A stretch of DNA of 64,000 nt from Paramacrobiotus metropolitanus (lineage: Eukaryota; Tardigrada; Eutardigrada; Parachela; Macrobiotidae), in contig NW_026570227.1 in assembly GCF_019649055.1 (NCBI RefSeq), positions 2,828,722 to 2,892,721 of the forward strand, written 5' to 3'. The notes beneath the pieces were generated by a model. It was not told where the DNA came from and did no database searches. It saw only the letters and a list, made by a program, of their open reading frames with translations. Shown here piece after piece: positions 29,407 to 51,195 of the stretch. A program made the position numbers and the translations under genes. Positions within the stretch are counted from its first letter, which is position 1, and each line of letters opens with the position of its first letter.

Positions 29407-29428
29407 TGGCTCAATCTGTACCAAGTTC
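29407..29428 (+). repeat. Left terminal inverted repeat of the large element
   Basis: Begins TGGCTCAATC. Mismatches to the right end are at positions 11 and 19 of 22. Confidence 0.7.
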
Positions 29429-29469
29429 GGCTTTAACCGTCACTGTCTCGTTGCGGACCAGAATCCGCA

Positions 29470-30665
29470 AGACGGCTTATAAGCCGCGACACACCGCAAC
29501 GGGCCGCAACAGTGCTAGCGTGTGTGCTGGCACTGGGCTGCCGCGACGCCGCAACAGCCGCGACACCGCTTATCAGCCGCGACACGTCGCAACGGGCCGC
29601 AACAGTGCTAGCGTGTGTGCTGGCACTGGGCTGCCGCGACGCCGCAACAGCTGCGACACGGCTTATCAGCCGCGACACGTCGCAACGGGCCGCAACAGTG
29701 CTAGCGTGTGTGCTGGCACTGGGCTGCCGCGACGCCGCAACAGCTGCGACACGGCTTATCAGCCGCGACACGTCGCAACGGGCCGCAACAGTGCTAGCGT
29801 GTGTGCTGGCACTGGGCTGCCGCGACGCCGCAACAGCCGCGACACGGCTTATAAGCCGCGACACGCCGCAACGGGCCGCAACAGTGCTAGCGTGTGTGCT
29901 GGCACTGGGCTGCCGCGACGCCGCAACAGCCGCGACACGGCTTATCAGCCGCGACACGCCGCAACGGGCCGCAACAGTGCTAGCGTGTGTGCTGGCACTG
30001 GGCTGCCGCGACGCCGCAACAGCCGCGACACGGCTTATAAGCCGCGACACGCCGCAACGGGCCGCAACAGTGCTAGCGTGTGTGCTGGCACTGGGCTGCC
30101 GCGACGCCGCAACAGCCGCGACACGGCTTATCAGCCGCGACATGCCGCAACGGGCCGCAACCAGGGCTAGCGTGTGTGCTAGCATTGGGCTGCCGCGACG
30201 CCGCAACAGCCGCGACACGGCCTATAAGCCGCGACACGCCGCAACGGGCCGCAACCAGTGCTAGCGTGTGTGCTAGCATTGGGCTGCCGCGACTCCGCGA
30301 CGCCGCAACAGCCTCGACACGGCCTATAAGCCGCGACACGCCGCAACGGGCCGCAACCAGTGCTAGCGTGTGTGCTAGCATTGGGCTGCCGCGACGCCGC
30401 AACAGCCGCGACACGGCCTATAAGCCGCGACACGCCGCAACGGGCCGCAACCAGTGCTAGCGTGTGCTAGCATTGGGCTGCCGCGACGCCGCAACAGCCG
30501 CGACACGGCCTATAAGCCGCGACACGCCGCAACGGGCCGCAACCAGTGCTAGCGTGTGTGCTAGCATTGGGCTGCCGCGACGCCGCAACAGCCGCGACAC
30601 GGCCTATAAGCCGCGACACGCCGCAACGGGCCGCAACCAGTGCCAGCGTATGTGGCGGCACAGGC
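29470..30665 (+). repeat. 93-bp satellite array, left, about 13 units
   Basis: GC-rich units of about 93 bp (GCCGCGACACGCCGCAACGG, CTGCCGCGACGCCGCAACAG). Outer units, up to about 30150, are type A (ACAGTGCTAGCGTGTGTGCT followed by GGCACTGGG). Inner units are type B (ACCAGTGCTAGCGTGTGTGC followed by TAGCATTGGG). Type B carries a perfect 7-bp hairpin, TGCTAGC-GTGTGT-GCTAGCA; type A has one mismatch in it. Frames are open on both strands because 93 is a multiple of three. Confidence 0.97.
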
Positions 30666-31439
30666 TTACAGTGCTAGCGTTGTAGCCATGTTCAGCTACA
30701 ACGTCAGACTCAAGTCGGGTAACGGCAGCAGTCCGGGGAACGGTGGAAGATGTTTAGGCTTCGTCTCCTTACTGTAGCGTATCTCGCTACGATACAGCAC
30801 CGTAGCTAGTTTCGCTGCAATACAGAAATGGGACACACTTTGGTGAGTGCCATCAAGGTACAGTACCGGCTACGCATATCGAAACGGGGCTCGCTTTCGG
30901 TTTTCTGTATCGAATCTTTAGGTTTAAGCTTGTATCACTGTATTTGCGTCCCTTCGCTCCGATTCACAATTTCAAATTTTCGTTTGCCCAGTGTTTCTTA
31001 ATTCTCCTATTCAATATCTGATTTTCGTCTCCATTTCGCTTTTCTGTAGCTGATTCTGAATTTTGGTAATATTGACGGGCTATAACAAGTGGAATTTTTA
31101 CTCTTTTGAGCTGGTCACATTTCTTGTTTAAAATTTTGTGCATATAGGTTCTAAAACTAGAAAAGTGCACTCGCTTTAGGCGGGCACTGCATGACCGAAG
31201 CGTAGCAGGCAGATACAATATTTTTGGTACAATATTACCGGCTTATATTTTCTTCATCTATAATTTGTCAGTAATGTTCTTCGTGCGGGAAACACGCTTC
31301 TACATTTAGGCAGAGAGCTGCGTAGCGTCAGTTATGAATGATAATTTCCTTCCGTATGACTTCAAGAAATAGCACAATGAAAGTACAAACACAGTGCCAA
31401 AACGGAACCACGTTCATAACAGATACACATAGCACATAT
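30666..31439. other. Unique spacer inside the large element
   Basis: No supported gene. CACCGTAGCTAGTTTCGCTG near 30800 recurs as ACCGTAGCTAGCTTTGCTAC near 32262, so a short dispersed repeat flanks this part. Confidence 0.4.
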
Positions 31440-31850
31440 TTGGCCCGGTATATAGCACCAAATTTGTATACATCCACGGCAACTTTCGCTGTCGCGCACT
31501 CCCAAATACTTTTTTGCATTGATTTATGATATTTATAGTATAGCCAAAGGATTCGTATACATAGGCGAAAAAACCGTTTGTGCGCGCAACATCCGGTTCG
31601 GGAGTTATCAGCGAAATAAAACTCCAAAAGTTTAAACGCGCAGAGGTGTACCAAAAGTCTTATTATGCAACGATTCTTTTCTAATTATGCACGAAAACGC
31701 ACGTTACTATAAAGATCGTTTTGGTACCGAACCAGCTTTCTACCATTTTTTCAAATTTTAATTTAATTTCTAAAATTTTTGAAATTCATTTTAAAATTTG
31801 AAAAAAATGGTAGAGAGCTGGTTCGGTACCGAAACGATCTTCAAAGTAAT
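31440..31850. mobile_element. Fold-back element 2, partly deleted copy
   Basis: Homologous to the left arm of 14985-15690: shared ACCAAATT.GTATACAT, CGCGCACTCCCAAA, GTTTGTGCGCGCAACATCCG and GTGTACCAAAAGTCT. The centre is again a palindrome with AATTTTAAAATTTG-like runs flanked by GAACCAGCT / AGCTGGTTC. The right arm is only about 60 bases, so most of it is deleted or was never copied. Confidence 0.8.
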
Positions 31851-33255
31851 ATGTGTAATATATGAGCAAAAACAGCGTTCATTTTCATAAAACTCAAAAA
31901 ACTCACGAAAAGAAGTCGTCACGTTAAATGACAATATTAAAAAATGCTCACTCATCAACAGAAGGTTACCAGGGAAAGCCACCTCTGGAAGTGGCTTCGC
32001 GAACCGTATGGTTTTTCTTTGTATTTCGGGGTATGCGTAAAAAGCGCGCGTAAAATTTTCGGCTGATAAGAGACGCGGGGTTGTTACGGGTTCTGAGATA
32101 CGGTTCGCAGGATACCGTATCAGAGAGTTGTGAATACGAGACGCATTTGGATACGGGCCATACCCCCGTCTCGAATCTTCTCGCGGGTAACCGGGCACGC
32201 GAATCGAAAACTGCCATACCGTATCGCGTACCTGCTGTTCTGGGACGGTGGTGTACTGTACCGTAGCTAGCTTTGCTACAGATTGGGGACGAAGCCTTAG
32301 TTTTGGCCTTGTGTTATGCCATAATATTCCTAAACTAATATTATGGTTACTTTAGTAATATAGTGGATAGATTATATTGGTTATAATGGTTAGTTCAGTA
32401 ATATCCTGGCTAGTTTGTTATTATGTTATGGTTAGTTTAGTAATATTGTGGTCATGCATAAGCATTCCGCATGTTGTCCAGTCAGACACTACCAGCCGCA
32501 GACGTCGCTACAACATGGACTGGTTCGGATATATTAGAAACGGTGTTCAGTGTTCACATAAACGTCTACAATTCATTTGCTTATCATATGCTGAAAGTTA
32601 TTCACAAGAAAAGCGTTTGACTATGAAGCACGACCACCAAAACAGCCTATGCATTTTTTGCCCAGTGTACAGACTGTATGTTTAGTACGAAACCACTAAT
32701 CACGCCAGTAGAATACATAAACGAAAACTTTAAAACTGGTATGAGATATTCCCATAAATTTAGACCATATGTACTATGACAACGGACTGATACACCCTGC
32801 CCACTGCTCAGTGCTTAAGCTGCCGAACGCACAGAATCGCGCAAAGGGTCACGCCTTCGATTGACTAAACGTCTAAACCTATGCAAAACGGGAAAGCTGT
32901 GTGACCAACGATCATTCCTGTTGAGTGACCAGAAGTTACAGGATCTCGTACTGTTCGTAGGTTCTGCCAGAATCACTACACTTGCCTGTCACAATGCTAA
33001 AATACATATTCATTGAGTCATCATGTATTGTACCATCATGCATTACACCATCATGTATATCATGTATATTCGGCGAATGAAAATTTATACAGGTTCTGGT
33101 GATATTATTTACTTGAAAAGAAAACTAGGACTTAAAACTGCGAACAAAATTGGTAAACATAACATGCTCGGTGCACACTTTCATCTTAAAATCCGTTTCG
33201 AAGTAATTGCCGCTCTTCTTAAACAGCGGTTCAGTTCATACTTCCGTGCGGCGGG
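31851..33255. other. Intergenic, inside the large element
   Basis: No supported gene. At 32310-32450 AT-rich short repeats of the type ATGGTTAGTTTAGTAATAT occur several times, and near 33020-33065 the string CATCATGTAT recurs. Confidence 0.4.
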
Positions 33256-34725
33256 TTAATCTTCTGCACACGCGAGACACCTGAAAGCCTTTTCCTTAGC
33301 GCTGGTCAACCTTCCGGTAATGCCTCCGCATTTCTTGTGAAACACAAGACTGCAGGTTGTACACACAACTCCACGTTCCTTCTCACTTGTTGCCTTAGCA
33401 CACTTGGCACACTGCAAGATACAGTATTGTAAAATTTATACCCAGAAATACTGTTACGAAGGGTTTTGGTACTGACCTTCACTTCATCATCGAGCGAAAC
33501 AACTGCAACAAGTTTCGATTTTTGCGTTTGAGGCCCAGAACCTGAAAAAGAGATGTGGGGAAATCCAAACAGAGAGGTGCGGAAACTGCTAAACGTAGAT
33601 TGTGTTGCGCACAGTTTTCTTGATACGACTGAAAAGCATCGGTGCCCTTTAGCGTGCAAAAAACTTGGATCTATGTTGTTGTATTCACTGTGTTCTAATT
33701 CATAACAGGATAAAGGTTTCGCAAAAAGTCGCAGAAGATAAAATTATTCAGGAGCTAAAAAGTACCATATTTTTTTGCGACAGTTACTTAAATCAAAGAG
33801 AACATTACAAAAATCTCGTGTCCGGAAAACGAAGAAACATCGTAAAGGTATCTTACATATCATGTACTGAATCAGCGTTCGAATTGCAGGACGTGAGAAT
33901 TTACATTTAGATTTAATAAAGCTCAGTGCTGCTTGGTATATGGCCTTTTTCATACCTGTATCCACAAGCTTTCGCTTTTTTGCGGTGCCTTGCGATTTCG
34001 TGCTCTCTGAAACGACTTAAACTAGTCCTTATCACATTGCGTGAGGTATGGCAGTAAAGGAACATTTAGGCCAGTACCAATATTACAGAGGAACATTTAG
34101 AGCTATTTCATAAAAATTACCTGACAGCTGGTCGTCGACCGAACTGGGCTCCTCATGTACACCGCGAGCACCGCCATCTCTCTGACCTGTTGGCGATGGG
34201 ACACGTTCAGATGGGGAAACACGTCCGTGTTGGACAATGTGCTGCTCCGTTTCAGACACCTCGACGCATTTTGCAGTTGACGAGGAGCTCGCAATTGTAC
34301 TAGCAGCGTCTGTCTTTAATGCCGGCTCGCTCTGAATCGATAATGCGGGCTCTGCGGTCTTGTCCTGCAAATTATCCGCGGATGCCGGTGCAAGTTTCTC
34401 AGCAGATTGCGGAATTTGGTCCATCGAATCAGCGGTCAAGCCCGAGATTCCTAGAAAATTAGGACAATCAATGAGGCATAAATTTGTGTTTACGACAATC
34501 TTTAGTGTTATAACCAAAAGCCACGAAGGGTTTTCCAGTTAACAAGAAATGCTAAATTTGATATATTTGAAGCCTGAACAGTATCTGCTTTTCAAAATTC
34601 TACTGTACGAGTGGTTTTCAACAGAGCATGAAATTCTAAACGTTTCTAAAAACAAATTATCTAGAACCGATTCATTATTGATAAGAAAGGTATGCATAAA
34701 ATTGAAAAGTAGATAAATCATTACT
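33256..34725 (-). CDS. PHD-finger-like protein, C-terminal exons
   Basis: Three minus-strand exons join in consistent phase: 34121-34450 (Ser/Ala/Glu-rich linker, SAEKLAPASADNLQDKTAEP), 33477-33541 (SGPQTQKSKLVAVVSLDDE) and 33256-33411, ending at TAA 33256-33258. The final exon has CAKC, CTTC, HKKC and CLAC, a C-x2-C/C-x2-C/H-x2-C/C-x2-C series with PHD-like spacing (12, 4, about 15). A preceding exon ending at 34725 (RRSEILDVASHE, donor GTAATG) also fits by phase but is uncertain; the 5' end was not found. PHD fingers bind histone tails in the nucleus. It lies on the same strand as, and downstream of, the P-loop gene and could even be its 3' part. Confidence 0.55.
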
Positions 34726-35044
34726 TTCATGTGAAGCAACGTCCAGAATCTCGGATCTCCGGTGAACGAAATACGTGAATATAATGTGAAATTGTCCAAT
34801 TAACATAAAAAGCACTGTAGTTACTAGCAACGTTATAGTGCAAACCCGAGATTCTTGACGTCCACGCCACGCCACGCAAGCCATGGCACTACAACAAAAT
34901 AACTGCAGTACCGCCACACTTAAGCTGCTGCAGTATTTCTTTAACACGGCACAGCTGTATCACGTGTATTGCGGTGAATGCAGTTATTCTGATATACTGG
35001 ACATGTGCAACAGCTGCTAGTGATAAAGAAGTGCTGCAGCCGCA

Positions 35045-35365
35045 CAAGTGTGCCGGTGACTGCAATTATTTTGGTGCAAAGCGACTTTATTTTGGTCGTA
35101 TTTTAGGCAATTATTTTGGTCCTCTAATTCAGCAAAACCAAAAAATTTCTGTCTGTCACACTGCCTGTCTGTCCCGGAAATCGAAAATACTTCCTTATTA
35201 CGCAATCACTTCCTTAACCCGCAACTTTTTTTGTTACGTCATGCTCATCGACCGGATTAGGCAAGGTCCTCTAATTCAAAAGAAGCAGAAAGTTGTCTGT
35301 CTGTCCATCTGTATGTTTGTTAAATAGGTTGACGATAATTCCTTTATTACGTCATCACTTCCTTA
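35045..35365. repeat. CRE-like short-repeat locus (partner 18295-18475)
   Basis: The leader AGGTCCTCTAATTCA with CTGTCTGTC.. appears in two tandem versions (near 35119 and 35266). They are followed by ACTTCCTTATTACG.AATCAC and GTTACGTCAT, the complement of the unit at 18.3 kb. Confidence 0.7.
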
Positions 35366-36309
35366 TTGCTACAAAACTTGCTTGCTCTTTAGCTGCCTTT
35401 ATGTTAGGCAATCCCGTACACGGCTAAGAATCACAAATTCTACTGACAGATGCACGAAAATATAGAAAACTTCAACACGAGCGCGCTCGAAGAGCACAGT
35501 AATGAAACAGAGAGCCGAACCAAGAAAGGCCATGCAGGCAAGAAATTACAAAAGAAACTTGGAGAGGAATAGTGTCACGTAACCCGAAAGCTCGAAAGAC
35601 CAGGCTGCAGCGCGCTGTGTTTCGGACAGCAAAATTTCGTGTACTAATGAGCCCTCGCGGAAAATGCGCGGATCAAGCCAGCGATTAACGATTTAATTCA
35701 AAAATCCTATACTTCACTAGAAAAGCGAATCGTAAAAGATTGATGCAGTTGATTCAATAAATAGTCATGTTCGGACTGAAAGCGTATAGTTCTCACTAAC
35801 AGGCAGCATTAACAGGCAACAGCCTCGAAAACATTGAGACAATTGCGTTTGAACAAGGGAGAGTGCTGACCAAGATTAACAAACGGGTAAAGGTTATGAT
35901 AGCAGAAACCACATAGACGTTGAAAGTCGTTTTATGACACCAGGAGACCAGCGCAAGCTGGAAATGTAAAGGGACAGGCTACAGCGCGCAGCTGTCGGAA
36001 AGCAGCAGCCGAAAAATTTCCTACTTGTAGCTCCTGAGTCTTCGCGCAAAATGCACGGATCTGATCAAAAACAATAATCGATACAAAACGTAAAAACTTA
36101 CACTTACAAAAGCGAAGCGTAAAGATTGTTTCAACATAATTAAAAAAATCGTATAGATTTTATTAACAATTTTTGCAAAATTCACAGCTATCTTCCAGGG
36201 ATAATGGCTTCTTGGCACCAAGGTCGCCTGACATTTGTGCCAAAAAAAGCCCCACTCCATATTCCTCTCGAGGCGAGAATGGGCATGAGTGTTTCATGCG
36301 TACAGTTGC

Positions 36310-36480
36310 AATTTTGGCCCACGCTTAAACTCTGATTCGGACCACTCAAACTTTGACTGCTCAAAATCTGACTCTGACCACTTACAGTCAGACTGTGATT
36401 CTGACGGCCCAGACTTTGACTCTGACCGCTCAAAGTCTGAATCTGACCGCAATTTCTTTGACCACCAAAACACTGATTCA
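36310..36480. repeat. Imperfect TCTGAC/TTTGAC short tandem repeat
   Basis: Degenerate units such as GACTCTGACCGCTCAAAGTC repeat about seven times. Translated, the plus strand gives an SDSD-rich and the minus strand an SQS-rich peptide. No start, splice or domain context supports coding. Confidence 0.6.
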
Positions 36481-36869
36481 GCCATAAAACATAAGTTTTC
36501 TTAGGTTTCTTAGGTCATCGTTCTGTTTCTTGTGTTTTTTTAGTGTTAAAATGCTATTCTTAGGTTTTTTCGTTTTTTTATATTTCTGGTTTTTCGTAGG
36601 TTTCTCAGAATTTTTATGTTTCTTAATCTTTTTAAATATCTAAGGTTATTCTTAAGAAGTTCTTAGGTTGTGTTAGGTACCACTTATGCCTTATCCCATA
36701 CCACTTATGCCTTATGACAATCACCAGATACAACAGAATTAGCATAATGCAGCTTCCGCTTTTTCTACGGGCGGTTCTTTGTAACTGCTACTGTGCCGTG
36801 ACTTGCCCTCACCAAGCAAATCCGAATACTTTGAAAAGAATCAGCACAGCCTCAAACTAGATCACTTAC

Positions 36870-39800
36870 CACGCGAGTAAACCCATATATCAGAGCGATA
36901 TTAGATCCAATTCGTTGTGTGGATTGACCCATTGCGTACTTCGTCGGCGTTGCGATAACTTCATTGAAGATGGAATCATGATGGCGAGCAACAGCGGCAA
37001 TCTCAACGTCCCGGCAAACGAATAACTTCAGAGCGTGCTGACAAAGAAGCCCAAAGAAAGCCTTGTCGCGAATGCGCAAAATCGCGCTGCGCTCCGCAAT
37101 TTGCACGGAAAAAGGCACAAGAACCCCTCGAGAAATGGTGCGCATGCTGCAAATTACACATTTTAGGTTTTTTGTGGCTAAAAATATGAGAAACTTAATT
37201 ACGCACAGGCCGCTGTTACGAACGTCGGCCAAGGCGTCGGAATTCAGTGTGATGATTACTGACGTCTGAGGATATCGTCGTTCGTTATAATTCACCAAAG
37301 CCTTTTTTTGGTATGTGTCTTCTATTGCCACCTTCGTAATTTCTGGCCCAACAGGATCATGTATGACGACCGGGAGATTCTGTGTAGTGACCAGATCCCT
37401 GATTGCCGCTGGTGTGACTGTTTTCATGTCGGAAAGCTGAGAAGCACCATGAGCATACATTTCTAGCACCATGCTACCCGCGAATGATTTTCCACAATTA
37501 GTGTCTCCGTGCAGCAGTGGGGTAGGCATTCGAAGGAAGTTTTCAATGGTGACGTCGTAATGAACTCCTGCATAAGCTCCACCTAAAGTGATGAACGTTA
37601 ATAAGAACAGCATATTCATTTAAATTACTTTCGTGAGATAACCCTATTTTCTGGATCAGTTTTCCTAAAGGATGGTCGTAACATCGAAACATAAAGGCCT
37701 GCTGCTGCTGTACTGTGAATCCCAGAGTGCTGAAGATAATTTCGGCCGCACAGAATCACTGCGGCCAACGCTTAACTTGGCCGAGACTCGCTTCGGCCAG
37801 CAGTTAATTCGGCCGGCGCTCATTTCGGCAGCTGGACATTTCCTTTCTGCCCTCTTCATTTTTGAAGCTTTCCTAGATGTCTTGGTTAGTTTTCTTATGC
37901 TTCATAATTCTCCTTGATGTGGGAAGGCCAAAATGAGCGTCGACCGAAGTGAATCTGGACTTTTAGATTTCACCACGTTGGATACAGGTTACGTTCGTGT
38001 AATATGCGGGCCGTTGTACACAACGCACGGAAACCTCTTCTCAATATAAGCGCCACATTTCGAGTATCCAGTGACATCGGTTGTCTCACCCACTTATTAT
38101 CCGAAGGATAAAACTTCTGTTTACGGCTACGGCAAAAGACTTGCGGCTTCTGCCGAAAATAGGTCAGACGTGGTGTACCACGGGCAGCAAAATGCACACC
38201 TGTGTAACCTATGGGCTGGAAATTCTTTGTTGACGGCCGAAAAACTGTGGCGGAACTATATGTGGGCGTAACAAAAACGGCCGAAATGATCGGTAGCCAT
38301 CTTATATGAATCAAGTTCAACTTAAAATGCATTTTCACCAACACTGTCTGACAGAATAAGTTTAGTAACGAGCCTATCCAACATCCTCTCCTGAGATACT
38401 GACATTGAGTCGCAACTTGGCTAACTACCAGATTTTTAGCATAAATAGGTCATGTTTGTTACCTAGTGCAAGACTCAGTCCCAGCATCGTCTTCTCGGGC
38501 ACTAAAGATGACAGAAACTTCATAGCATCGAAATCCAGTGGAAATGTTCTCGGAACCGTCAGCTCAGGTAAGGCACCAGGGATCCAAATGTATTCAGAGG
38601 AGAGGAGATCAACTTCTTCAAAGGATCCCATTTCGGTTCGGCGGAAAGCTGTTTCTGAACCGAAAACTATTGTAGAACCATCTCCCTGTCTTCCGTGACG
38701 GAGAACTCTTTTTCGAACGATAGGTTGTCCGCTTTCTTTGGCTTTCCTGCTCGAAACGATGGGAATGATGCAATTACCTCAAAAAAGGCTGTTTTGCAGC
38801 AGCTTCATTGCCACCGAATGGGCTTAGCAGCAGTACTATTGTAAAAACGTCAAAGTTTACTAAATCGGAAAAATGTTCTGCTCTAGTGCACAATTATTTA
38901 TTTATATATTTGTTTTCGCCATCAGTTAGCACACACTACGGTAACGCAACGTCGCAAAATAAAATGAAACATTTTTGAAAATCCAGCTTACGCGACCGTT
39001 CAAGTGAATTGAATAGAAATTTTACAAACTTAATTTGCCATATGCGAATTGTTGCAACCTCACTGGAATGCCTACTATCATGTCCTCTCAATGCGGGTAA
39101 CACGAGAAACGTTCTAATATGAGTAATACGGGTAATACGAGAAACTGGTAATACGAGAAAAAACTAAATACTTGAACTTACAGAACAAAATTATTGGTCA
39201 AGAATTTTCCGTATTCTTGAAGGTCATTCTGGCTCATTTTGCAAAATACAGCCGGCAATCCTTTACAACCTTTTTTCAAGGCCGTTTTGAGGCATTCAGC
39301 GGAGTTCCAAGCAGTGTTGGAAAGAAAACCTTTGCTGAAACGTAATACTTTTATGAGTTGCTTGATATTTTAAGGCACGGTTTGTTATTCGTGCCGCAAG
39401 TTGCCGTGCAGTTTTGCAGTTACGAGTAATGTGTCTATACATCGAAATAGTAAGACTATAGATATAGACGCAATTATTCAAGTTTAAGAACTGCGGTATA
39501 GCTAATCGTTTTCGAGAGAAACAAATATCATGCGGCCTAAGTACATTGTCTTAATAACATTTAAGAAACTTCGGACCGAAAGCAGTGCCAGACAAAAAGT
39601 TGTAATTATGACATTTCTCTACATCTATTTTGAAGCGACTAAATGTAGTGCACTGCTTGCACTTTACAGTCATGATTCCAAAGTAATTCTGAATGTCACG
39701 ACTCATTACACTCACAATGTTCCGAAAACATCGCAGTCAACCTCCACCAAATATCCGCCATCCGTATCGTTGTCATCCCCGCAGACAATGGCGATGATTT

Positions 39801-40076
39801 CGATTGCGCAGCTTAACACTTCCCGTCGACCGTCATCTTCTTCTTTTAATGCCGCGATCTTAAACGTCTTCGCATTTTCCACGCCAAACGTGTAAGAGGT
39901 GGTGGCCTGATCAAGAACTTGTTGAGCAAAGCGTTACCTAAATATATTCGCACATTATCATTACCGATGAATCCATGCGTCCGGTCAAGGATTTTCTGAG
40001 GTGAAAGAGATGCCACGAAAAAGGTTTTTGGAGGATAAAATTTTGCTACATATCCGCAAAACAACACTGAGAACAT
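36870..40076 (-). CDS. P-loop NTPase, multi-exon, divergent from the transposase-like gene
   Basis: Exons on the minus strand: about 40076-39716 (VRIYLGNALLNK, then ATTSYTFGVENAKTFKIAAL, DDNDTDGGYLVEVDCDVFGT), 38746-38463 (TIVFGSETAFRR, LPELTVPRTFPLDFDAMKFL), 37582-37207 (YDVTIENFLRMPTPLLHGD, then TNCGKS) and 37146-36870. All four join in matching phase (2, 1, 2), and the last ends at a perfect GTAAGT donor, so more exons follow. The Walker A motif is GDTNCGKS. LPVVIHDP is a Walker-B-like strand and SVIITLN a sensor-1-like strand. From memory it resembles uncharacterised invertebrate P-loop proteins. One base seems missing near 39922 between NALLNKF and DQATTSY, a frameshift or an assembly error. 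The start codon is uncertain. Likely role: an ATPase partner of a mobile element (inference). Confidence 0.65.
37735..38290. repeat. Dispersed CGGCCGAA motif cluster in an intron of the P-loop gene
   Basis: Within intron 37583-38462 the string TTCGGCCG/CGGCCGAA and near variants recur about ten times (37740-37830, 37925-37960, 38235-38290). They are often followed by AATGA and spaced about 18-22 bases apart in the first block. The function is unknown; it could be a protein-binding site array or a decayed minisatellite. Confidence 0.6.
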
Positions 40077-40443
40077 AATGTCTGCCAGATGTACCAGTTC
40101 TATGCAATCGCGAAACGTTTTTCGCGCTGTAATTTTGTTCGTGCGTCAACTGCGCAAGCACGTGGACAAGGAAAACGTGACTGGCGCCAGACCCTGTGTG
40201 CTCTGTGTATATGAACTGAGCGGCACGCTACCGCTTGCGGGAAACGTAGCTGTGCGCGGCACATTAGAAGACCGGCGCCTTTGGTCTTAGGCAATTGTGC
40301 GGTCTGTTTTGTCGAACTTTAAATATTTATACGTTGCATGCGTGTAATCAGAATTAGGTCTTAACACAACCATACAGAGTCACTTAGAGATACGTAGTTT
40401 AACCCGTTTAGATCTGAATGAACTTGTCATTAATTTTAGCACA
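40077..40443. promoter_or_regulatory. Shared promoter region between the divergent genes
   Basis: 367 bases separate the first minus-strand exon of the P-loop gene from the first ATG of the KDZ-like gene. A head-to-head layout this tight implies a bidirectional promoter. No TATA box can be assigned with certainty. Small undetected 5' exons could lie here. Confidence 0.45.
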
Positions 40444-43400
40444 ATGGCGAAAAGAATCAAGCTGGAGGCGAATTCTCGTGAAGCGTCCTCTTTTATGGCT
40501 GAAAAATATGGATTTCAAAATCTGGAGCGCTTGAAGATTTGTTGCGCAGCTGTACCGAAAACGTTGCCGTTTCCTCGTCGACTGAAGGTAAGATATTCTC
40601 GCTTTAAACGGAGCTCTTTTGCTAAGCAAATTTAAGTGGCTAAGCTGTTAGAAGTTTTCCTAAAATTTATGGTGGCTGCGTGCAGTGCAGATAACTTGCC
40701 CCATTTTAATGATCAACTACCCAGGAAGCATTTATAGTGCTCAGATCCAAAACAGTGTCATCGTTGGCAGAAAAAAGATAAACCACCTTACTTACGCTAA
40801 TTGAGAAGAGTGATCGCGTAAACATGTTAACCATATGAATTTAGTATACGTAATATGCTTGTTACTGAGTGATTAGTTTTAACTACAGTGCATTGGAGGT
40901 TTCGCGCGCCACTTCCTCCGTAGGCCAACAGCAAATAAACCTGTAATTTTTCAAGTGATGACTAAACCGAAACCCCGGGTTCACTCTTGCCACTGTTGCC
41001 TAACCGTAAACTTTGCTTTGAGTTTTTTCGTGATAATGCGCAAATTTCTTCCTAAAATTGTGAATTATGGTTAAGCGGACATCAAGAATAATGTCGTGTT
41101 GGCGAAACGTTGCCTAGGTAGGTGTATGCTCCACAACGTTGCTCGCAAGATTGTGCAGTTCCTCATGCCGGTAAGCCGGTAACTACTGCGTTCAGCTATA
41201 TTTAATCTGGATGGGAGCTTGTTTGAAATATAATGCCCCTTCCAAAATATGATTCTTGAAAATAGCGCCACACCTTGAAAATTGCGCCTACACGCAGAAA
41301 TGAACCCAATTTGTCATAGTCTTACAAGCACGAGGACCCAGTTGTGGTTGGACTTCAGGTTCGAGCTTAGGCTCAAAATGAAGCTTAGAAAGTACTTTAT
41401 TTTTTACCATTTTTATCAATGCCACTGATATCATAGATAAGTTTAAAAAAGCGCTCAAAGTTAGTATTGAGTAGCGTTCCATGACGTCGGTATGCGCAGA
41501 TCAAAAGCACCACGCTACTCAATACGCACGCTAATCAATACTAACTTTGAGTGCTTTTTTAAACTTATCTATGATATCAGTGGCATTAATAAATCTGGTA
41601 AAAAATAAAGTACTTTCTAAGCTTCATTTTGAGCCTAAGCTCGAACCTGTAGTCCAACCACAACTGGGTCCTCGTGCTTGCTAGAGCTGTTCGCAACCGG
41701 GGTAAAAAATTTGATAAATACGGTTTACAATGAAGCAACTGCATTACCACTGATTGTGCAATAGGACCACTGATTGTCTCAATAACACTAGTACGTGCAG
41801 TTGCAGGCATTCCAGGTCCGGCCAGTGATCGACGACTGGAATGGGCCATGTCTAATAAAGTGCCCATAAACCTAAAAATAATATTGCAGCTCGCACAAAG
41901 CGCACACGGCAATATGTACATAATATGAATCACTGTAAATACTGATTTTGTTCACTCAAGAAGCGTGCTGTGAGAGGATGTTAAGATAAAGTAGTAAGAA
42001 CGTTAGCCGTGCATTTCTTGAGCGATTCGATTTATCTTGATTTCAGGTATTATCGGAAATGCTGGGGATGTCTAAGTTGTTAACAAACACCTTTTTGAAA
42101 GACTTTGAATCGTTTTCTCCCGCTTTTCTGGAGACCGGTCCTTTTGTTGCCCCATTCCAAGTACTGTATCCACCAGTTGTCCACTGCCTGAAGGGCTGCG
42201 TATGGAAAAAGGGAGCCAATAAAGGGATGCCCCGAGTCTTGCAATGGCACCGTGATCCAACCAATGTACGCCCGTAATCGTATTGTATTATTAAAAATTT
42301 TGACGCCTTAAGTGCTCTATTTTGATTTATTTTGACGATGTTTATATTTTTACACGTTTAGCTTAGATATTTGATAAAAGCGAATCGAATGTCCTAAGTA
42401 TACGATAAGGGGAGTAGGAGTTTGCTCGGTGACGCACCAAGTCGGAGTAGGCATAACCAATGTTACCACTAATAGTTCCTCAGCTCCTCGCTTACTGCTT
42501 AATTTGGATACGCGGTGGTCAGAAACCCGGCTTGGGTTGTAATTCCATGTGGCTGACACAATATCACATATTCCACTAAAATATTTCGGTTTAAACGAAA
42601 ACGTTTCATTTTCTAACGAAGCGGCAACTGTGTCCGCCGTTCCTAGAGATAATAGCCCACTTTTGCAGGCGTTCCAACTTCCCGCACGTAACGTTATGCC
42701 CCTAACTATTTGACACCACAATATGCATGAGTTTTGCTTTCTTTTCCAAATGTGTTGACGACACCCGATCACCTGGCACTCAGGCCAGCCCGTGCTTAAT
42801 ATCACTATAATTCTAAGAAATTAAATCTTTTTCAAAGAGTAAATCTTCATCAAAGGGAAAGTGGAAATTTGAGATTTTAGAGAAGCCAGCGCGGATACGA
42901 TGGCTGTCTTAGATCATAAAATCAACAGCCACAATACGGAGCTGCGCGCAGTAAATACTTTGCGTAGTCTCTTTGCAACCTTTCGAATCTGTATTGTGTT
43001 TTCTCGATAGCCGCCTCACCTTTTCTGCCTTGTCACACGCGTCAGTTCCCGATATTGCATGATTCTGATGCAGCCAGTCGATGCTAGTGCGCGCCATGGT
43101 GTAAAAGATGCGATAGCTATTGAAGCAACTTCGCTTTTAGTTCTTGATGAAAGCCGGCTACGTAAGCACGCATCTATATACTGGCGCCGTATGGAGTCCT
43201 GCTGCCAGGCTGCATAAGCGGTGTCTGCAGACGTTTTGATCGAAATCAGCCAACATATCCGCGCTGGCTTCCGTGAAAATACAAAACTGAACTTTTCTCC
43301 ACGGGAATGATTTGATTTTCAGAAAGCATTATAGGAATTTTGAGGATTTTAATAATACTAAGCACGAATTGATCCGGATGCCAGGTGGTCGAGTATGTCC

Positions 43401-46400
43401 TCGTTTGCTATTACGGTTTGCAAGATTACCTACAAATTATGGGGTTTATTTTGCCCACGATCAGTTGGCTTAGATTTTAAGATCTAGAATTACATATGAA
43501 CACGTAGTTTACGCATTGTTTTAGGTCACCATGTTTTGCGGCGCCGCAAAAATTATTCATGGGTTAGCAGTTAAACTAAGATGCCGAGGTTGCGGTTCCC
43601 GTTATTCACCCTGTACGTGGACGAATCGGGACACGTCCACATATTCTTTTTACGATTCGGAGCAGCCATTCCTTGATATTTCCCAGGAAGTATACGTCTG
43701 CCGAAAATTTGCACTGGAAATCGTAAATAACATGTATGCTGAGGCTATAGTGTTTGCAATATTGCCGTTAAATACTGTTAATTTATTTGTGCTTAAAGAT
43801 TCTTCAACCACGCAACTTACGACGGTATTGCGGAAACCATGAGACATACGTACGATTGGAAAAAATGTAAAGTCACATGGTTTTGATCAGAATTAGTAAA
43901 AACGCCAATAAATCAGCCCTTTCTAAATTTTGTAGTGTTCTCACGAAAAACTGTAGCCAGTATCTTCTTACGGCATGAGATCGAATGCGACATTAAAGAG
44001 CGAAAGGTCACATACCAGTTCGAGGAGAACAGAAGTGTGCTACAATACTTGGACACACGCATGGATGAAATTTTTGCCAGCACCTACAACCACCGGTGTT
44101 CTGAAGCCTGCCTAGCGAAGCAGTGCGGAAGAATCTTTATTATGGATGAAATCTGGAAAGTCGTTTTTCGACATTGTATAGCAGAAGTAGAAGTATGTAC
44201 CTGCCAAAGCGGCGTGCTAATTCAAAAAGTAAACAGTTTGTCTTTGTCTGGAAAATGACTTTTAACACCCGGGTGCTACCGTGTTACGGGATTTTTGTAC
44301 TGGCGTATTATGCTTTACGACCCACGGACCTAGGGCACTGTTCACCAGTTATGGGCTGCGACCATTAGTATAGCGCTTAAAAATGGAAAAACAAAAGCAG
44401 GAACCTTCAGAAATCTACATAATATTCCGCGTTACAGCCAGTCCAGTTGAGCGTATACAGGGCGCATACGCAGATACACTTGCACATCTCGGCTACATGT
44501 GCGTGTACATACATGTACGCCTCGTACATACCTCACCGTTTACACTTTAGCCCTCGTTTCCGGATGGGCTTATAATATATTACTGTATCGTGCACTGGCA
44601 AAATGCAGGCTTTTCTGTAATAGTGTCATTTTGAGTTTGCGGGCGCTGCACTAGATGGATACTCTCCGAGCATCGGCAGTGCTACCGCAGGCGCGTATTA
44701 GTCATATCGGTACAAGATAAAAGTACATTCAATGCTAGTGCAATACCGCAAAATTAAGTTTTAACTGAAAAAGTCTGAAGTAGTACTTCTCCATTGTACC
44801 ATTGCACCGAATACTCCTTATTACTTACGATAATGCTAAGGAGTCCTTAAAATATGTTTATCACTACTATAAACTTATTTTAATTTCGACCTTTGAAGAT
44901 AAAATTAAGAAAACCATAATTCCACTCTAGCTTTTACCAAAAAATACGAGTTTTATGAAATAATGCCCGGAAAAGGTGGTCCGGTCAGTTGAGCGCATTG
45001 GAATTATAATTGGGTATTTCCTGCACTTATTAGTGCTGTACCGGTATACTCTTGGAGTGCACATACGTTCCGTGTGTACACGATATCTCGAGATTCAGTG
45101 CCGTTTTCTTCCTAGCAGCGCTGTGAATTGCCTTTTTATGGTTGCTGCTATTTGTGATAAGTTGCAAGTTGCCGAGTTCTAGTAAAGATACGTCCTTCTA
45201 TCCTTCTACAGATGCATACAGTACCACCTTTACGTACATCAGTCCCCGCTTCCGACCCTTCTTTTGGACTGTCCATTATTTCTGCTGTTCAGTGGTGAGA
45301 CGGAAGATCCGTCATGCTGTAATACAGTTTGTCGCGTATTTTAGTATCCCCTTCCGTTCCTGGTCTTATTAGCGTTGCTTGTATTAACTATTACACCAAA
45401 TAGCAGTATTGGTGTAAGAATGTAGATCGCATAAATAATTCACAGTATAGCGGTAAATAATGAATTCGTGATTGCAGACCGACGTGATATTGTTTTCAGA
45501 ATTTTGTGAAAGGGATCCCACTCGTGAACTTTCCATGTGTACGCACGCACTCGCCATCCGGAAAATAACTGTACTGCAAGAAACACAGCCACCAGGGCCG
45601 CCATACCGAGAAGGAAACCGATATCATCACAATACACATGGCAGGTTGGTTTCAGTTAGCACATGTAATATTGAAAAGAAATGATCATTAAAGCATCCGG
45701 TGTCGTTTTCTTGTTATCTTGCAACTACGAGAACAACTGCTCCTACCTGTCTTGCTACACCAAAGGGTAGCCTGCCAAACATAAGCTTTATACGGGTACT
45801 TTCCCTGGCGCGGCTAATTTTGGCACACAGTTTTATTGCAAGTAAATGGTTTCGTGCGTAAGGAAACTGATTTAAATTGCATATAGTTTTGGTTAAAGTT
45901 GTAAGCCCGTTTGGTGAACTGGATATTACTGCTTGTATCAAAGTGCTGTGGCCTTCCAGGAGTGTCCAGAGCTTTACAGGCAAAAGCAACGAGTGACATC
46001 AACTCAATTCTGCGCGGTGAAGTGGATCCTGAGACACCGGACAGCGATTGTCGAAAGTTTGATCCGAAAGCCGGATGCACAAAAAACAAAGGAGAAAACC
46101 AGCGCGGGCACTTGTATAGCCGGGGATATCTTTTCCTTGTGGGTCCAACAGGCCACATTTTCAGCTTTGCCCCAATCTACAGGTAAACTTGACAGTGTGT
46201 TTACAGTCACGCCTTACTGCATTGTTGACCAAGCATTTGCAGTCGAATTCAAAGCGTGGCGTTGGAGTAACTTTAGTTTAGTACCGGCATTTATTAAGTA
46301 CTACATAGTACAAGTATCTGCGTATTCAGCACATTACGACTTTCCAGTTTCTGTGCTAATCTTTTAGGAAAAGTAGCTCGCGGCTTGGTCACCATAATGT

Positions 46401-47012
46401 TATGTGAGGCCCAGTAAATTACTTTGCAATGACAAATGACAATGTTCGGCGAATAAAAACTGTTCTGTGAATTTTGTCTGTATGCAACAGGATGCAAAAG
46501 ATCACGAACGGTTTTTTTTCAGGGCTGAAAGCCTTGGACAAGTTTACCTGTTCGTCGTCAGCGCGCTTTATGATTTGCTGCAAAACGTTGCGCCGGAAGA
46601 ATGGGACAAGATTTTTGTGTGCTACGACAACATCTGTCAGCTTAATAGACTTAAAGCCGCAAGTGAACCTCTTCCTTTTCCGGAACCCTTCGACCAAATC
46701 TGGAACCGTGTGTCGAAAATTGTTGACGGACTGCATATTCAAAACCACAAGGATCCCAGATGCAAAGAGAAGTACCATCCTGATAAGTACTTGAAGAGCT
46801 ATCCTACTGCCACTGAACGAAACACCATGGCAGCAGAACAGACCTTTTCCTGGATCGCCAAGTTTAAGAAGCAGTTAAATGCAATGAACAAGGCCAGACA
46901 GTTTTTCTTTATCCACCGAATGATAGTGCGAAGAAATGAGTACATGTCTCACTGTGTGGCGAAAAATAGCCGACCTGTAGGGGGTACGATGCGCACGTTC
47001 AAAGAAAAGTGA
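40444..47012 (+). CDS. KDZ-transposase-like protein with CxC5-like and CxC6-like clusters
   Basis: Seven exons fit: 40444-40587, 42047-42265, 43525-about 43715, about 43936-44192, 45478-45644, 45970-46182 and 46523-47012. Junctions 1, 2, 4, 5 and 6 match in phase; the third is unresolved. Domains in order: a CxC5-like cysteine cluster split over exons 2-3 (VVHCLKGC, MPRVLQWHRDP, LRCRGCGSRY); a CxC6-like cluster in exons 4-5 (NHRCSEACLAKQCGRIFIMD, FCERDPTRELSMCTHA); and an RNase-H-like core in exons 6-7 (KIFVCYDNICQLNRL, VSKIVDGLHIQNHKDPRC, NTMAAEQTFSWIAKFKK). YDNICQ and AEQTF-W match the KDZ YDxxCQ and E-containing motifs. Families CxC1-CxC6/KDZ are known DNA-transposase modules. No internal stop was found. 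It could be an active or a domesticated transposase. Confidence 0.7.
41325..41680. mobile_element. Fold-back element 3, in intron 1 of the KDZ-like gene
   Basis: CAAGCACGAGGACCCAGTTG at the left end faces its complement CAACTGGGTCCTCGTGCTTG at the right. Arms of about 150 bases are inverted copies, through GATATCATAGATAAGTTTAA and CTCAAAGTTAGTATTGA, around a spacer of about 35 bases near 41480-41515. The right arm has about 16 extra bases near its inner end. Confidence 0.9.
42350..42805 (-). other. Antisense open frame inside intron 2 of the KDZ-like gene
   Basis: A minus-strand frame of 151 codons, preceded by a good acceptor (TTTCTTAG, 42814-42807). Upstream on the same strand a possible exon starts at 43097 (MARTSIDWLHQNHAISGTDA) with a GTGAGG donor. 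The two do not join in phase and no domain is recognised. It may be a nested gene remnant or chance. Confidence 0.2.
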
Positions 47013-49290
47013 GCGGTAATATGGGTGCGCAAGGCTGTTTAGGATTACAGTTATGATTTATTAGACCAGAATAATAGTGTTCTTGCTTTTTTTAATTTTC
47101 GACCTTAGTGCGATTTCTTTCACGAGATAAACCGCCTAAGTTGTTGTTCAGATGCAGGTATTGTGCTGGCATGTTTGTTCTGTAACCTTGGTCAAAGTCT
47201 GGTTATTTCTGAACTAAAATGTTTGGTTATCTCGGAGTGCAAGAAAAACGAAGTTTACCTCCTGTTGTTAAGAATGCTAATCGGCCATTTTACTGCATTC
47301 TGTGTTAAGCGCGATCGGTGAAAGGCATTACACAGATAAAACACCTCAGAAACGTCACATATCATATCACACAAACAGACTTTTTAAACGGCATGCTTTA
47401 ATTGGAGAGATCTACGTCTTTCTATCTGGGCTTCTTCGACTTTAGCCAGCGATGTGTTAGCAAAAATGTGCAATTTGCCTGCTACGTTGTCAAGCGCCAA
47501 TGTACTCTGCCCAGTCCTGTCGCGGAAGTTCAAGCATTTGCGTAAATCAAGTCAAAAATGTTTTTGTACTTTGTTTAGTAAGATTTGTCCCAGGTTTCCA
47601 ATATAACCTTTCATTACTTCTCGAAACGCGCTTTAAATGCGTTCTGTACGATACAGTGCCTAAAGTTCTGTAAAAGTGAATTTGCCAATGGTGCACCGCT
47701 GAATCTTACAGAGCGCTACAGAACAGCGAGACCACTAACTCAAAATTTTGTGCCTTTACAGTTAGTTTGAATTAATTTTATTTATTTTTCACCACGTGTC
47801 GGTGGTTTCAGATAGTCCTGCTTTGTTTTGGTTTTTGACACGTCAACACTTACTGTATCTGTTTCCCATTTGCAAGATTTCTACAGAAAGTGTACCATTA
47901 TGAGTTCTCGTAAAAAAAACCCTGTGCAACTTGCAAACCCTTTGTGAGCTTAAGATAGTTGGAAAAGAGTTCGATGAGTCTTCCAGCATAGTGATCTTTA
48001 TTTTTCTCCTTTTCTGATGGAACTGTTTTTGTGTGGATTTAGCATTGTACTGAACACCGCATGTTAGCAACGAACTTCCTGTAATACGAGTAGTTATAAT
48101 GCGAACACCATTCCAGAAAAATGCCTGCTTAATTAAACAAATTTTGCCCAGAAAAATCCCACCATGAGACACAAAACGCTCTGTTGTTGCTAATCTAGCT
48201 GGCAGCCGTTATTGATTTTGCTCTGATGACTGGTAACTCGTTCATCTTCACACTAATTTCTTAGTTTATCTCAAAAAGTACCAATTCAAACTCCAAGTAT
48301 AATTTTTAGCCGTACGATTGGCACATCAAAAAGTCACAACGAATTATTTTGAAACATCATTTTCATTACAAATCATTTCACTTGTGGTATAAAAATGCTA
48401 GTTATGTATCGTAACGGAGCCAGGAGAGTTCCTTTTAGATACAGAACACTTTAACTCGGGCGTCCAATCAGCGGTAAGGGGGTGTGATCCAAACGTTACA
48501 GAACTTCCGGCTCTGTATCGTACAGAAAGCATTTAAAGTGCTTTCGAGTACAGCTATTGCGGATCCGAATAGGCTAAAATTAAATCTAAATCCGAATAAT
48601 TGCGGATCCGAATAGGCTATGTGGCAGTAATCGGCCAGCCAGCTGAAGCTGGGATCGGGTTCTAGTAACCTTTAGAGGGCTTATAGCTGTCCTTCCAGAC
48701 TGTGGCCTTCCAGCGATAAATTCCATAGAAATTTTTATAAACTGTTCACTTTTGCGTGGTTGGTGGTTGTTGTGAAGATCCCAAATGAACGTGCACTTAT
48801 ATAAATTTTTGCGAATGTTAAAATGGCTTCAGGATGATTGCGGTTAGTTAGCCAGCAAAGATAGCTAACTTGGAGATGATGTTACTGTTTTCCAAGGATG
48901 AGACTTGCGTTAAAGTACAGGAGTTTTGTGTTGTGCCTGATATCTAAAAAGCAAGCGGAAAGATTGCACTAGTGGAAAAATCGAAGAAAAATCCGACAAA
49001 GCAGTGCCTTGATAAATCTGTCGTTTGCGCTAAAATGTGTTTAATCGGACCTTGTGGGATTAAGTGTGCTTAAAAACAGAACTAAAGTCGTTGCCAGTGA
49101 TTTACGAACGAGATTGTATTATAAAAGGCACATGGGACCACCAGAGGTTCCTTTACGAAATCACAAAAGGAAACGTCATCCACTTTACCAGTGCCACCTG
49201 TTTTACTGCAAAGGTCACATAGCCTTCACTGAAATACAGAAGAGAACTGTATCAAGCGAATTTGATAAGAGCTTCGTCAGCCATGTTCGC
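47013..49290. other. 3' flank of the KDZ-like gene, no gene seen
   Basis: AT-rich. At 48556-48576 and 48599-48619 a 21-bp string (ATTGCGGATCCGAATAGGCT...) is directly repeated. Nothing else is supported. Confidence 0.45.
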
Positions 49291-51060
49291 ACTGTTGCGG
49301 CTTATATGCCGTGTCGCGCTTGTTGCGGCGTCGCGGCAGCCCAATGCTAGCACACACGCTAGCACTGGTTGCGGCCCGTTGCGGCGTGTCGCGGCTTATA
49401 GACCGTGTCGCGGCTGTTGCGGCAGCCCAATGCTAGCACACACGCTAGCACTGGTTGCGGCCCGTTGCGGCGTGTCGCGGCTTATAGGCCGTGTCGCGGC
49501 TGTTGCGGCGTCGCTGCAGCCCAATGCTAGCACACACGCTAGCACTGGTTGCGGCCCGTTGCGGCGTGTCGCGGCTTATAGGCCGTGTCGCGGCTGTTGC
49601 GGCGTCGCGGCAGCCCAATGCTAGCACACGCTAGCACTGGTTGCGGCCCGTTGCGGCGTGTCGCGGCTTATAGGCCGTGTCGCGGCTGTTGCGGCGTCGC
49701 GGCAGCCCAATGCTAGCACATACGCTAGCACTGGTTGCGGCCCGTTGCGGCGTGTCGCGGCTTATAGGCCGTGTCGCGGCTGTTGCGGCGTCGCGGCAGC
49801 CCAATGCTAGCACACGCTAGCACTGGTTGCGGCCCGTTGCGGCGTGTCGCAGCTTATAGGCCGTGTCGCGGCTGTTGCGGCGTCGCTGCAGCCCAATGCT
49901 AGCACACGCTAGCACTGGTTGCGGCCCGTTGCGGCGTGTCGCGGCTTATAGGCCGTGTCGCGGCTGTTGCGGCGTCGCTGCAGCCCAATGCTAGCACACG
50001 CTAGCACTGGTTGCGGCCCGTTGCGGCGTGTCGCGGCTGTTGCGGCGTCGCGGCAGCCCAATGCTAGCACACACGCTAGCACTGGTTGCGGCCCGTTGCG
50101 GCGTGTCGCGGCTTATAGGCCAAGTCGCGGCTGTTGCGGCGTCGTTGCAGCCCAATGCTAGCACACGCTAGCACTGGTTGCGGCCCGTTGCGGCGTGTCG
50201 CGGCTTATAGGTCAGTCGCGGCTGTTGCGGCGTCGTTGCAGCCCAATGCTAGCACACACGCTAGCACTGGTTGCGGCCCGTTGCGGCGTGTCGCAGCTTA
50301 TAGGCCGTGTCGCGGCTGTTGCGGCGTCGCTGCAGCCCAATGCTAGCACACACGCTAGCACTGGTTGCGGCCCGTTGCGGCGTGTCGCGGCTTATAGGCC
50401 GTGTCGCGGCTGTTGCGGCGTCGCTGCAGCCCAATGCTAGCACACACGCTAGCACTGGTTGCGGCCCGTTGCGGCGTGTCGCGGCTTATAGGCCGTGTCG
50501 CGGCTGTTGCGGCGTCGCGGCAGCCCAATGCTAGCACACGCTGGTTTGCGGCCCGTTGCGGCGTGTCGCGGCTTATAGGCCGTGTCGCGGCTGTTGCGGC
50601 GTCGCTGCAGCCCAATCGCTAGCACACGCTAGCACTGGTTGCGGCCCGTTGCGGCGTGTCGCTGCTTATAGGCCGTGTCGCGGCAGCCCAATGCTAGCAC
50701 ACACGCTAGCACTGGTTGCGGCCTGTTGCGTCGTGTCGCGGCTTATAGGCCGTGTCGCGGCTGTTGCGGCGTCGCGGCAGCCCAATGCTAGCACACACGC
50801 TAGCACTGGTTGCGGCCCGTTGCGGCGTGTCGCGGCTTATAGGCCGTGTCGCGGTTGTTGCGGCGTCGCGGCAGCCCAATGCTAGCACACACGCTAGTAC
50901 TGGTTGCGGCCCGTTGCGGCGTGTCGCGGCTTATAGGCCGTGTCGCGGCTGTTGCGGCGTCGCGGCAGCCCAATGCTAGCACACACGCTAGCACTGGTTG
51001 CGGCCCGTTGCGGCGTGTCGCGGCTTATAAGCCGTGTCGCGGCTGTTGCGGCGTCGCGGC
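49291..51060 (-). repeat. 93-bp satellite array, right, about 20 units, inverted
   Basis: The same repeat as 29470-30665 on the opposite strand, almost all type B (TGCTAGCACACACGCTAGCA). Some units are 2 bases shorter (CACACGCTAGC). The outermost unit near 51020 has the type-A string CTTATAAGCC in place of CTTATAGGCC. Type-A features therefore lie at the outer edge of both arrays. Confidence 0.97.
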
Positions 51061-51173
51061 AAGGCACCCTGACAGCCTCAGAAGCACTGCCGCGCGTTGT
51101 CACGCTTTATGTACTGTGTCGCGCCCCGTAGCGGTTTTCATTTCGTTACGACGGCGCTACTGTCGCGCAACAC

Positions 51174-51195
51174 GATCTTGGTACGGATTGAGCCA
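51174..51195 (-). repeat. Right terminal inverted repeat of the large element
   Basis: Complement of the left end: CTTGGTAC then GATTGAGCCA. It lies about 115 bases outside the array, while the left copy lies about 40 bases outside its array. Confidence 0.7.

Follow-up and report, generated by a model that had tools for sequence, protein, structure and literature searches.

A probable giant KDZ transposon with satellite-array ends and a conserved ATPase-PHD gene in the tardigrade Paramacrobiotus metropolitanus

Introduction

Do two blocks of satellite DNA that face one another across a pair of divergent genes mark the ends of a single transposon and, if so, does the ATPase encoded by one of these genes take part in its movement? 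This question is raised by a locus of the tardigrade Paramacrobiotus metropolitanus that lies within the final 64 kb of a 2.89-Mb contig (this whole 64-kb stretch is termed the window, and all window coordinates refer to it). An initial annotation had proposed that a transposase of the KDZ (Kyakuja-Dileera-Zisupton) type, a P-loop ATPase and a PHD protein are encoded between inverted satellite ends of one giant element, in which the ATPase may act as a transposase partner. The locus has now been compared with the whole genome (169.8 Mb in 533 contigs), in which other copies are named by contig label (C1, C171 and so on). As read from its sequence, the element is built from a CxC5-KDZ transposase gene and an ATPase-PHD gene, a 25-bp terminal inverted repeat, an 8-bp target-site duplication and inverted satellite arrays, and its relatives are built alike (Table 1). 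We regard the element as a probable giant DNA transposon of autonomous type within the KDZ superfamily, a reading that includes binding of the arrays by the transposase, a partner role for the ATPase-PHD protein and recombination between the arrays. The structure is well supported; what the ATPase-PHD protein does for the element is inferred. The securely modelled exons of the window copy contain no stop codon.

Terminal repeats and target-site duplication

The 22-bp inverted repeat that had first drawn attention to the locus was recovered with 20 of 22 matching positions (29407–29428 against 51174–51195), and the true ends of the element were found slightly outside it, at 29401 and 51201, as parts of a 25-bp terminal repeat. 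The end core GGCTCAATCNGTACCAAG, with at most two mismatches allowed, has 91 matches in the genome, 28 of them exact, against 12 for a reversed control pattern; because other copies of the core exist, the inverted repeat of the window is not a product of chance. Across 30 loci that carry the core, two types of end could be distinguished, CAGAAGT-GGCTCAATCTGTACCAA (L) and TAGGACT-GGCTCAATCCGTACCAA (R), each with small variants, and the window has one of each, CAGAAGTGGCTCAATCTGTACCAAG on the left and TAGGACTGGCTCAATCCGTACCAAG on the right. The outer flanks of these loci are unlike one another, except for two (L037 and L057) that have a common flank.

The window copy is bounded by an exact 8-bp duplication, TTCAACCC. 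When 27 end pairs were built from neighbouring plus and minus matches to the core, a perfect 8-mer match was found exactly 7 nt outside the core in 13, and a perfect duplication at a neighbouring offset in two further pairs (C60 and C9:1847k). In a control with mispaired ends, at least seven of eight positions agreed in 1/702 combinations at the fixed offset; with 36 offsets allowed, at least seven agreed in 12/702 and all eight in 1/702. Like ends together with the gene set were also found at other loci. The notion that two unrelated satellite blocks happen to enclose host genes is thus given practically no credence, being refuted by the target duplications, the paired ends and the identical gene set elsewhere in the genome. 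An Rfam search of the window gave no match.

Related copies and empty sites

Paired cores are spaced from 298 bp (in C134, without a clear duplication) to 29.8 kb (C7:2282k), and the shortest pair with a perfect duplication is that of C247, at ~1.6 kb. The 298-bp copy (L051, C134:113464–113761) resembles a miniature non-autonomous element and has no array. Paralogous empty sites exist for two copies. For C98, the joined flanks with a single copy of the target match a site in C283 with 84% identity over all 98 bp, and other uninterrupted sites of this type are 79–82% identical across the junction. The C247 copy sits inside a 124-bp satellite, many monomers of which are uninterrupted (up to 94% identity) and represent empty sites. 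Searching with the joined flanks found no full empty site for the window copy, the left flank of which is itself a repeat; copies of that repeat mostly stop near the duplication.

The common left flank of L037 (C9:859706, a large copy) and L057 (C247:47173, 1.6 kb) is this 124-bp satellite, cut at the identical nucleotide in both. The two loci may be allelic, may stem from duplication of one locus, or may reflect a target that is hit preferentially.

Satellite arrays and an inward-pointing motif

Directly inside the terminal repeats, the two arrays of opposite orientation described in the initial annotation were found again, and blocks of up to 360 nt in the left and right arrays are 99% complementary. 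Of the 28 ends checked, 22 have an array of 81–94-bp units just inside, mostly 40–175 bp from the core (264 bp in C142). As far as the listed matches show, the 93-bp repeat is not scattered through the genome without such ends: two genome queries gave 457 and 363 matches and, among the matches listed, all lie within ~5 kb of an end-core match, save for those of the array on the right-hand side of C219, which continues up to the contig end. In 17 of 18 arrays (the two of the window and 16 from the 22 array-bearing ends), the motif CCGCRAY occurs on the inward strand at 26.7–62.5 copies per kb, and in all 18 the reversed motif is absent; mononucleotide shuffles, used as the control, gave at most six copies per array. 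The inward motifs are candidate transposase-binding sites, a reading based on the precedent of Galileo, the internal repeats of which are told in PMC4079207 to hold extra transposase-binding sites.

It is also conceivable, and in our view unlikely, that the arrays are ordinary products of satellite slippage with no function in transposition. Such an origin would agree with the six of 28 ends that have no 81–94-bp array and nevertheless have an exact end core, with the variation of the unit sequence between subfamilies, and with one array, that of C1:2239k, in which CCGCRAY is present as a single copy. This last array tells against a binding function, as does the inflation of motif counts by tandem copying, of which they are partly a by-product; because each unit holds several copies of the motif, its abundance reflects more than the copying of one site. 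Slippage accounts poorly for arrays placed just inside most ends and for a single motif that keeps the same inward direction at either end, and the Galileo precedent likewise speaks for binding platforms. Homogenisation of the arrays within an element is not claimed: arrays are closer to those of their own element in three of five elements (C1, C171 and C58), and this fails in the other two (likeness to own against other elements 90.4 against 90.5 in the window and 91.1 against 93.5 in C60).

The transposase gene

The plus-strand gene has been modelled with eight exons. Exons 1 to 5 join in frame into 299 codons free of stops, and exons 7 and 8 form one frame that continues to the stop codon. 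Exon joins here and in the ATPase-PHD gene are in frame with AG/GT borders, except for one link in each gene. The spliced protein (in the version used for searches, without exon 4 and with an approximate joint at exon 6) matches the Pfam family CxC5 (PF18718, cysteine cluster associated with KDZ transposases) with 42.3 bits against a cut-off of 26.9, and its catalytic exon shows 41% and 40% identity to segments of the genome, in C129 and C515 respectively, that both pass the Pfam KDZ cut-off. The proposal of a KDZ-like transposase has therefore held. A genome search with the protein gave 87 matches, which do not include C65, the third segment to pass the KDZ cut-off. The D of FIMDEIWK, the D of CYDNICQL and the E of AAEQTFSW, which we take to be the DDE catalytic residues, are kept at corresponding places in distant copies. 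A Pfam scan of ten single open reading frames yielded nothing usable for either the transposase or the ATPase, and third-codon-position periodicity in comparison with the C1 copy gave too faint a signal for exons to be delimited.

The first intron contains a hairpin with 158-nt arms that are 95% identical (41320–41477 and 41528–41685). The region around it (~41027–41955) cannot be aligned to the C1 copy, and the hairpin is probably a small nested element.

The ATPase-PHD gene

On the minus strand, an ATPase block (39909 to 36870) and a PHD block (34450 to 33256) are each in frame. The initial annotation had counted three genes. Two divergent multi-exon genes were found as proposed, and the third, encoding the PHD finger, most likely forms the 3' portion of the gene for the ATPase, as judged from sequence comparison. 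The two blocks are read as one gene because the ATPase and PHD exons stand in identical order in the C38 relative, and because the public P. metropolitanus model P0003 (754 amino acids) combines a homologous ATPase (24% identity) with a C-terminal cysteine-histidine, PHD-like finger (17.4 bits, below the PHD cut-off of 24).

Of eight members of the ATPase family, two match TniB, with best E-values of 0.035 and 0.048 that are not significant, and a sequence search of the PDB with the ATPase gave no meaningful match, the best being an ABC transporter (E 0.005 and 0.003), taken as chance since the match depends mostly on a helical stretch outside the P-loop. The same search with P0003 returned weak PHD matches only. 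Homology searches for the genes of the element among 5.8 billion proteins found P. metropolitanus proteins only, among the candidates scored (3353 in one search, a cut at 8000 in two others); as these searches are word-based, needing shared 5-residue words, and limited to scored candidates, a wider host range stays possible.

It is very unlikely that this protein is a superfamily-3-like helicase and that the element moves through a step of replication instead of plain cut and paste. Its compact layout of Walker A, HD, TxN and SR, which we take to resemble superfamily 3, is in keeping with a helicase, as are weak matches to families named phage DNA primase/helicase (best E 0.006). None of these matches is significant, however, and no polymerase or nuclease was recognised by Pfam in the ten open frames and the spliced proteins scanned. 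Furthermore, two distant ATPases (L120 and L123), the P-loop exons of which are open, have tryptophan in place of the glycine before the P-loop lysine (TWKT and TWKS), a change that may weaken ATP binding.

Pairing of the two genes and selection on the ATPase

A genome query with the ATPase gave 39 matches, merged to 27 loci, and the KDZ matches were merged to 41 loci. In 21 of the 27 ATPase loci a divergent KDZ match lies 803 to 5676 bp away, an arrangement for which the chance is ~0.4% per locus (a rough figure, derived from the 41 KDZ loci of a best-candidates search). The paired loci include ten in which the ATPase is only 23–34% identical (C53, C420, C103, C58, C138, C130, C50, C4, C137 and C74); these distant pairs are known from their genes alone, the ends and duplications of the family having been characterised in other copies. 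Five of the six unpaired ATPase loci lie within paired ends (C56:367947, C92:18396, C98, C63 and C7:2307676), and C126 lies outside. Near one end of the elements with the AAA-type core at C56:367947, C92:18396 and C98:507817, short ATPase fragments are found, that of C98 within a 3.1-kb derivative that has an exact target duplication.

The best argument for a function of the ATPase in the service of the element is the selection that retains it from copy to copy. The ratio of nonsynonymous to synonymous substitution rates (dN/dS) of the P-loop exon is 0.05–0.11 in five of the 15 listed pairs, the other ten being saturated: 0.05 for window–C171 and for C9–C63, 0.08 for C121–C92 and for C7:2291k–C92, and 0.11 for window–C335, where dS is 2.8 and near saturation. 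The exon that follows gave 0.08–0.26, with 0.52 in the most distant pair, and the transposase exons gave 0.04–0.15. For the PHD exon the ratio is 0.41, from just 33 synonymous sites. Together, the conserved divergent pairing and the purifying selection give strong indirect support to the partnership suggested earlier, in which the function itself remains inferred.

Orientation of the gene block

Because an L end can be told from an R end, copies can be compared in the direction of their genes. Of 11 paired elements, four have a transposase that points toward R (window, C60, C44 and C56) and seven have one that points toward L (C1:2754k, C171, C38, C92, C7:2282k, C1:375k and C63); the direction in C63 was judged from its ATPase, and C9:859706, for which a single end was found, was excluded from the count. 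The window and C171 copies have P-loop exons that are 97% identical, yet their gene blocks are opposite in orientation. This suggests flipping of the gene block, with recombination between the inverted arrays as the simplest cause; an exchange of ends is a possible alternative.

A model for transposition

A mechanism may be proposed in which the transposase would bind the inward-pointing CCGCRAY motifs of the arrays and cut at the terminal repeat, with the ATPase-PHD protein as a conserved partner for efficient or well-placed transposition, through assembly or target choice, and its PHD finger possibly acting as a reader of chromatin. The gene block would be flipped, and the arrays resized, when one inverted array recombines with the other. 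By analogy, it is plausible that the ATPase works like the helper ATPases of Tn7 and Mu.

Several further observations weigh against this account. A perfect duplication is missing from 12 of the 27 end pairs, although some of these 12 are false or shared pairs (C171:12784 and C171:6072 have one common right end). The catalytic exon of the window falls below the Pfam KDZ (PF18758) cut-off, so that the window itself has no KDZ match, and one transposase exon (exon 6) has uncertain borders. In the ATPase-PHD gene the 5' end and the link between the two blocks (36870 to 34450) are unplaced and exons may be missing, and the Walker-B-like motif, an HD, lacks the second acidic residue that is usual there. 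In the C38 copy the P-loop exon and the PHD exon are each interrupted by one stop, and an 18.8-kb copy in C1 has an exact target duplication without alignable P-loop exons. Finally, no ATPase was detected within 30 kb of 20 of the 41 KDZ loci; the ATPase gene may have decayed there, the search may have been too insensitive, or these loci may do without an ATPase.

These loci without a detected ATPase would also fit a role of the ATPase-PHD protein outside transposition, as an accessory retained against chromatin silencing in the manner of the TET/JBP genes borne by fungal transposons. PHD fingers usually read histone tails, a property that counts toward such a defence, and KDZ elements in fungi do carry TET/JBP genes that are thought to aid escape from silencing, as described in PMC12730594. 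We nevertheless hold this alternative to be rather unlikely, given divergent pairing with KDZ genes down to 23% identity and strong purifying selection on the P-loop exon. A partner role in transposition is preferred. Taken to its full extent, this role would make the element a eukaryotic counterpart of Tn7 and Mu, in which the KDZ transposase depends on the ATPase, the PHD finger reads histone marks to find targets, and the arrays serve as binding platforms and flip sites; we offer this tentatively, as a possibility that is less likely than not.

Table 1. Features of the element and their positions in the window
Feature	Position	Strand	Basis or remark
Whole transposon, 21,801 bp	29401..51201	.	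Terminal repeats, exact 8-bp target-site duplication, like structure at other loci
Left target-site duplication TTCAACCC	29393..29400	+	Flank comparison
L-type terminal inverted repeat CAGAAGTGGCTCAATCTGTACCAAG, 25 bp	29401..29425	+	End comparison across loci
Left satellite array, 93-bp unit, 12.7 copies	29465..30661	+	70 inward CCGCRAY, 0 reversed
PHD finger exon with stop codon	33256..33411	-	Pfam PHD 25.9 bits, cut-off 24
ATPase-PHD small exon	33477..33541	-	
ATPase-PHD small exon with KKRK	33956..34006	-	Possible nuclear signal
ATPase-PHD low-complexity linker exon	34121..34450	-	Link to the 36870 exon only assumed
ATPase exon with conserved SR arginine	36870..37146	-	
ATPase P-loop exon	37207..37582	-	Walker A GDTNCGKS, Walker-B-like VVIHD, sensor-like TLN
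ATPase-PHD exon	38463..38746	-	
ATPase-PHD exon	39182..39334	-	
ATPase-PHD first coding exon found	39716..39909	-	5' border not placed
Transposase exon 1	40444..40587	+	Modelled by hand; putative start codon
Transposase exon 2, encodes a portion of the CxC5 cysteine cluster	42047..42265	+	AG and GT flanks
Transposase exon 3, encodes a portion of the CxC5 cysteine cluster	43525..43733	+	AG and GT flanks
Transposase exon 4, small	43799..43866	+	AG/GT flanks; in frame with neighbours, matches MKHTYGWNK of public model P0001
Transposase exon 5, presumed first catalytic D in FIMDEIWK	43936..44192	+	
Transposase exon 6, borders uncertain	45656..45765	+	No GT at drawn 3' border, stops near drawn 5' border
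Transposase exon 7	45960..46182	+	In frame with next
Transposase exon 8 with stop codon; D (CYDNICQL), E (AAEQTFSW)	46523..47012	+	Homologous to segments passing Pfam KDZ
Right satellite array, ~94-bp unit, ~18 copies, inverted relative to left	49293..51061	-	100 inward CCGCRAY, 0 reversed
R-type terminal inverted repeat TAGGACTGGCTCAATCCGTACCAAG, 25 bp	51177..51201	-	End comparison across loci
Right target-site duplication TTCAACCC	51202..51209	+	Flank comparison

Surroundings of the element

Outside the left end lies a tandem array of a 96-bp unit in 22 copies (also with a 287-bp period; 26201–28328), and to the right of the element is an open frame for a reverse transcriptase (RVT_1, 67 bits; 55978–57210). 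Three open frames pass the Pfam cut-off for F-box (6889–7776 on the plus strand, 16434–17567 and 23174–24154 on the minus strand) and possibly represent a local F-box gene family.

Comparison with known transposons

With known KDZ elements, among them KDZ1-3 of Cryptococcus and animal Zisupton, the element has in common a KDZ-type transposase that bears a cysteine cluster, inverted repeats at its termini, an 8-bp duplication and a multi-exon gene like that of animal Zisupton, as far as these are described in PMC12730594, PMC12810828 and PMC9297572. Duplications of 8 bp are given for Zisupton and Dileera and of 7 bp for Kyakuja (PMC12730594), and the Zisupton genes of nematodes are described as multi-exonic (PMC9297572). 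Kyakuja is set apart by its 7-bp duplication and its want of terminal inverted repeats, whereas 8 bp and a 25-bp terminal repeat were found here. The Cryptococcus elements are reported to be 9–11 kb long with inverted repeats of 139–241 bp, CxC1, and duplications of 8 bp (KDZ1) or 4–8 bp (KDZ2 and KDZ3) (PMC12810828); the present element is ~22 kb long and has CxC5. It further differs from known KDZ elements in its satellite arrays inside the ends, in its second conserved gene (ATPase-PHD) and in a gene block that is flipped between copies. Zisupton is present in tardigrade repeat libraries according to PMC11071193 and is mentioned in an Ectocarpus paper (PMC12477816).

Long inverted ends built of tandem repeats, the hallmark of foldback-type elements, are likewise found here. 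Galileo and Tetris are described with long inverted ends that may contain tandem repeats (~140 bp in one D. willistoni copy of Galileo and 220 bp in Tetris) and with 7–10-bp duplications (PMC4168063, PMC4079207). Galileo encodes a P-type transposase and Tetris has no gene, whereas here ends of this type are joined to a KDZ element with genes. Maverick/Polinton and Teratorn are comparable in size range and in carrying more than one gene, as told in PMC6431247; the transposase here is of another type, and no polymerase, protease or capsid gene was recognised in the frames and proteins scanned. The main text of that giant-transposon review contains neither 'KDZ' nor 'Zisupton', and none of the titles and abstract openings listed in searches of the open-licence literature describes a KDZ element that carries an ATPase or has ends made of satellite DNA.

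The bacterial transposons Tn7, Mu, IS21 and Tn5053 use the helper ATPases TnsC, MuB, IstB and TniB, respectively, and have a DDE transposase side by side with a dedicated P-loop ATPase, as is found here. The present system differs from them in lacking significant sequence similarity (the TniB matches being the best), in its PHD finger and in its eukaryotic multi-exon genes, and it is known from sequence alone.

Significance

Bacterial DDE transposons are known to employ helper ATPases; to our knowledge, none has been described for a eukaryotic cut-and-paste DDE transposon. A PHD-fused P-loop ATPase that is kept beside a KDZ transposase points to a possible eukaryotic two-protein transposition system that is worth testing, and the family would make it possible to ask by experiment whether the ATPase of a transposon can read chromatin marks in the choice of targets. 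As a KDZ element with ends made of satellite arrays, it may also give rise to satellite DNA and to inversions.

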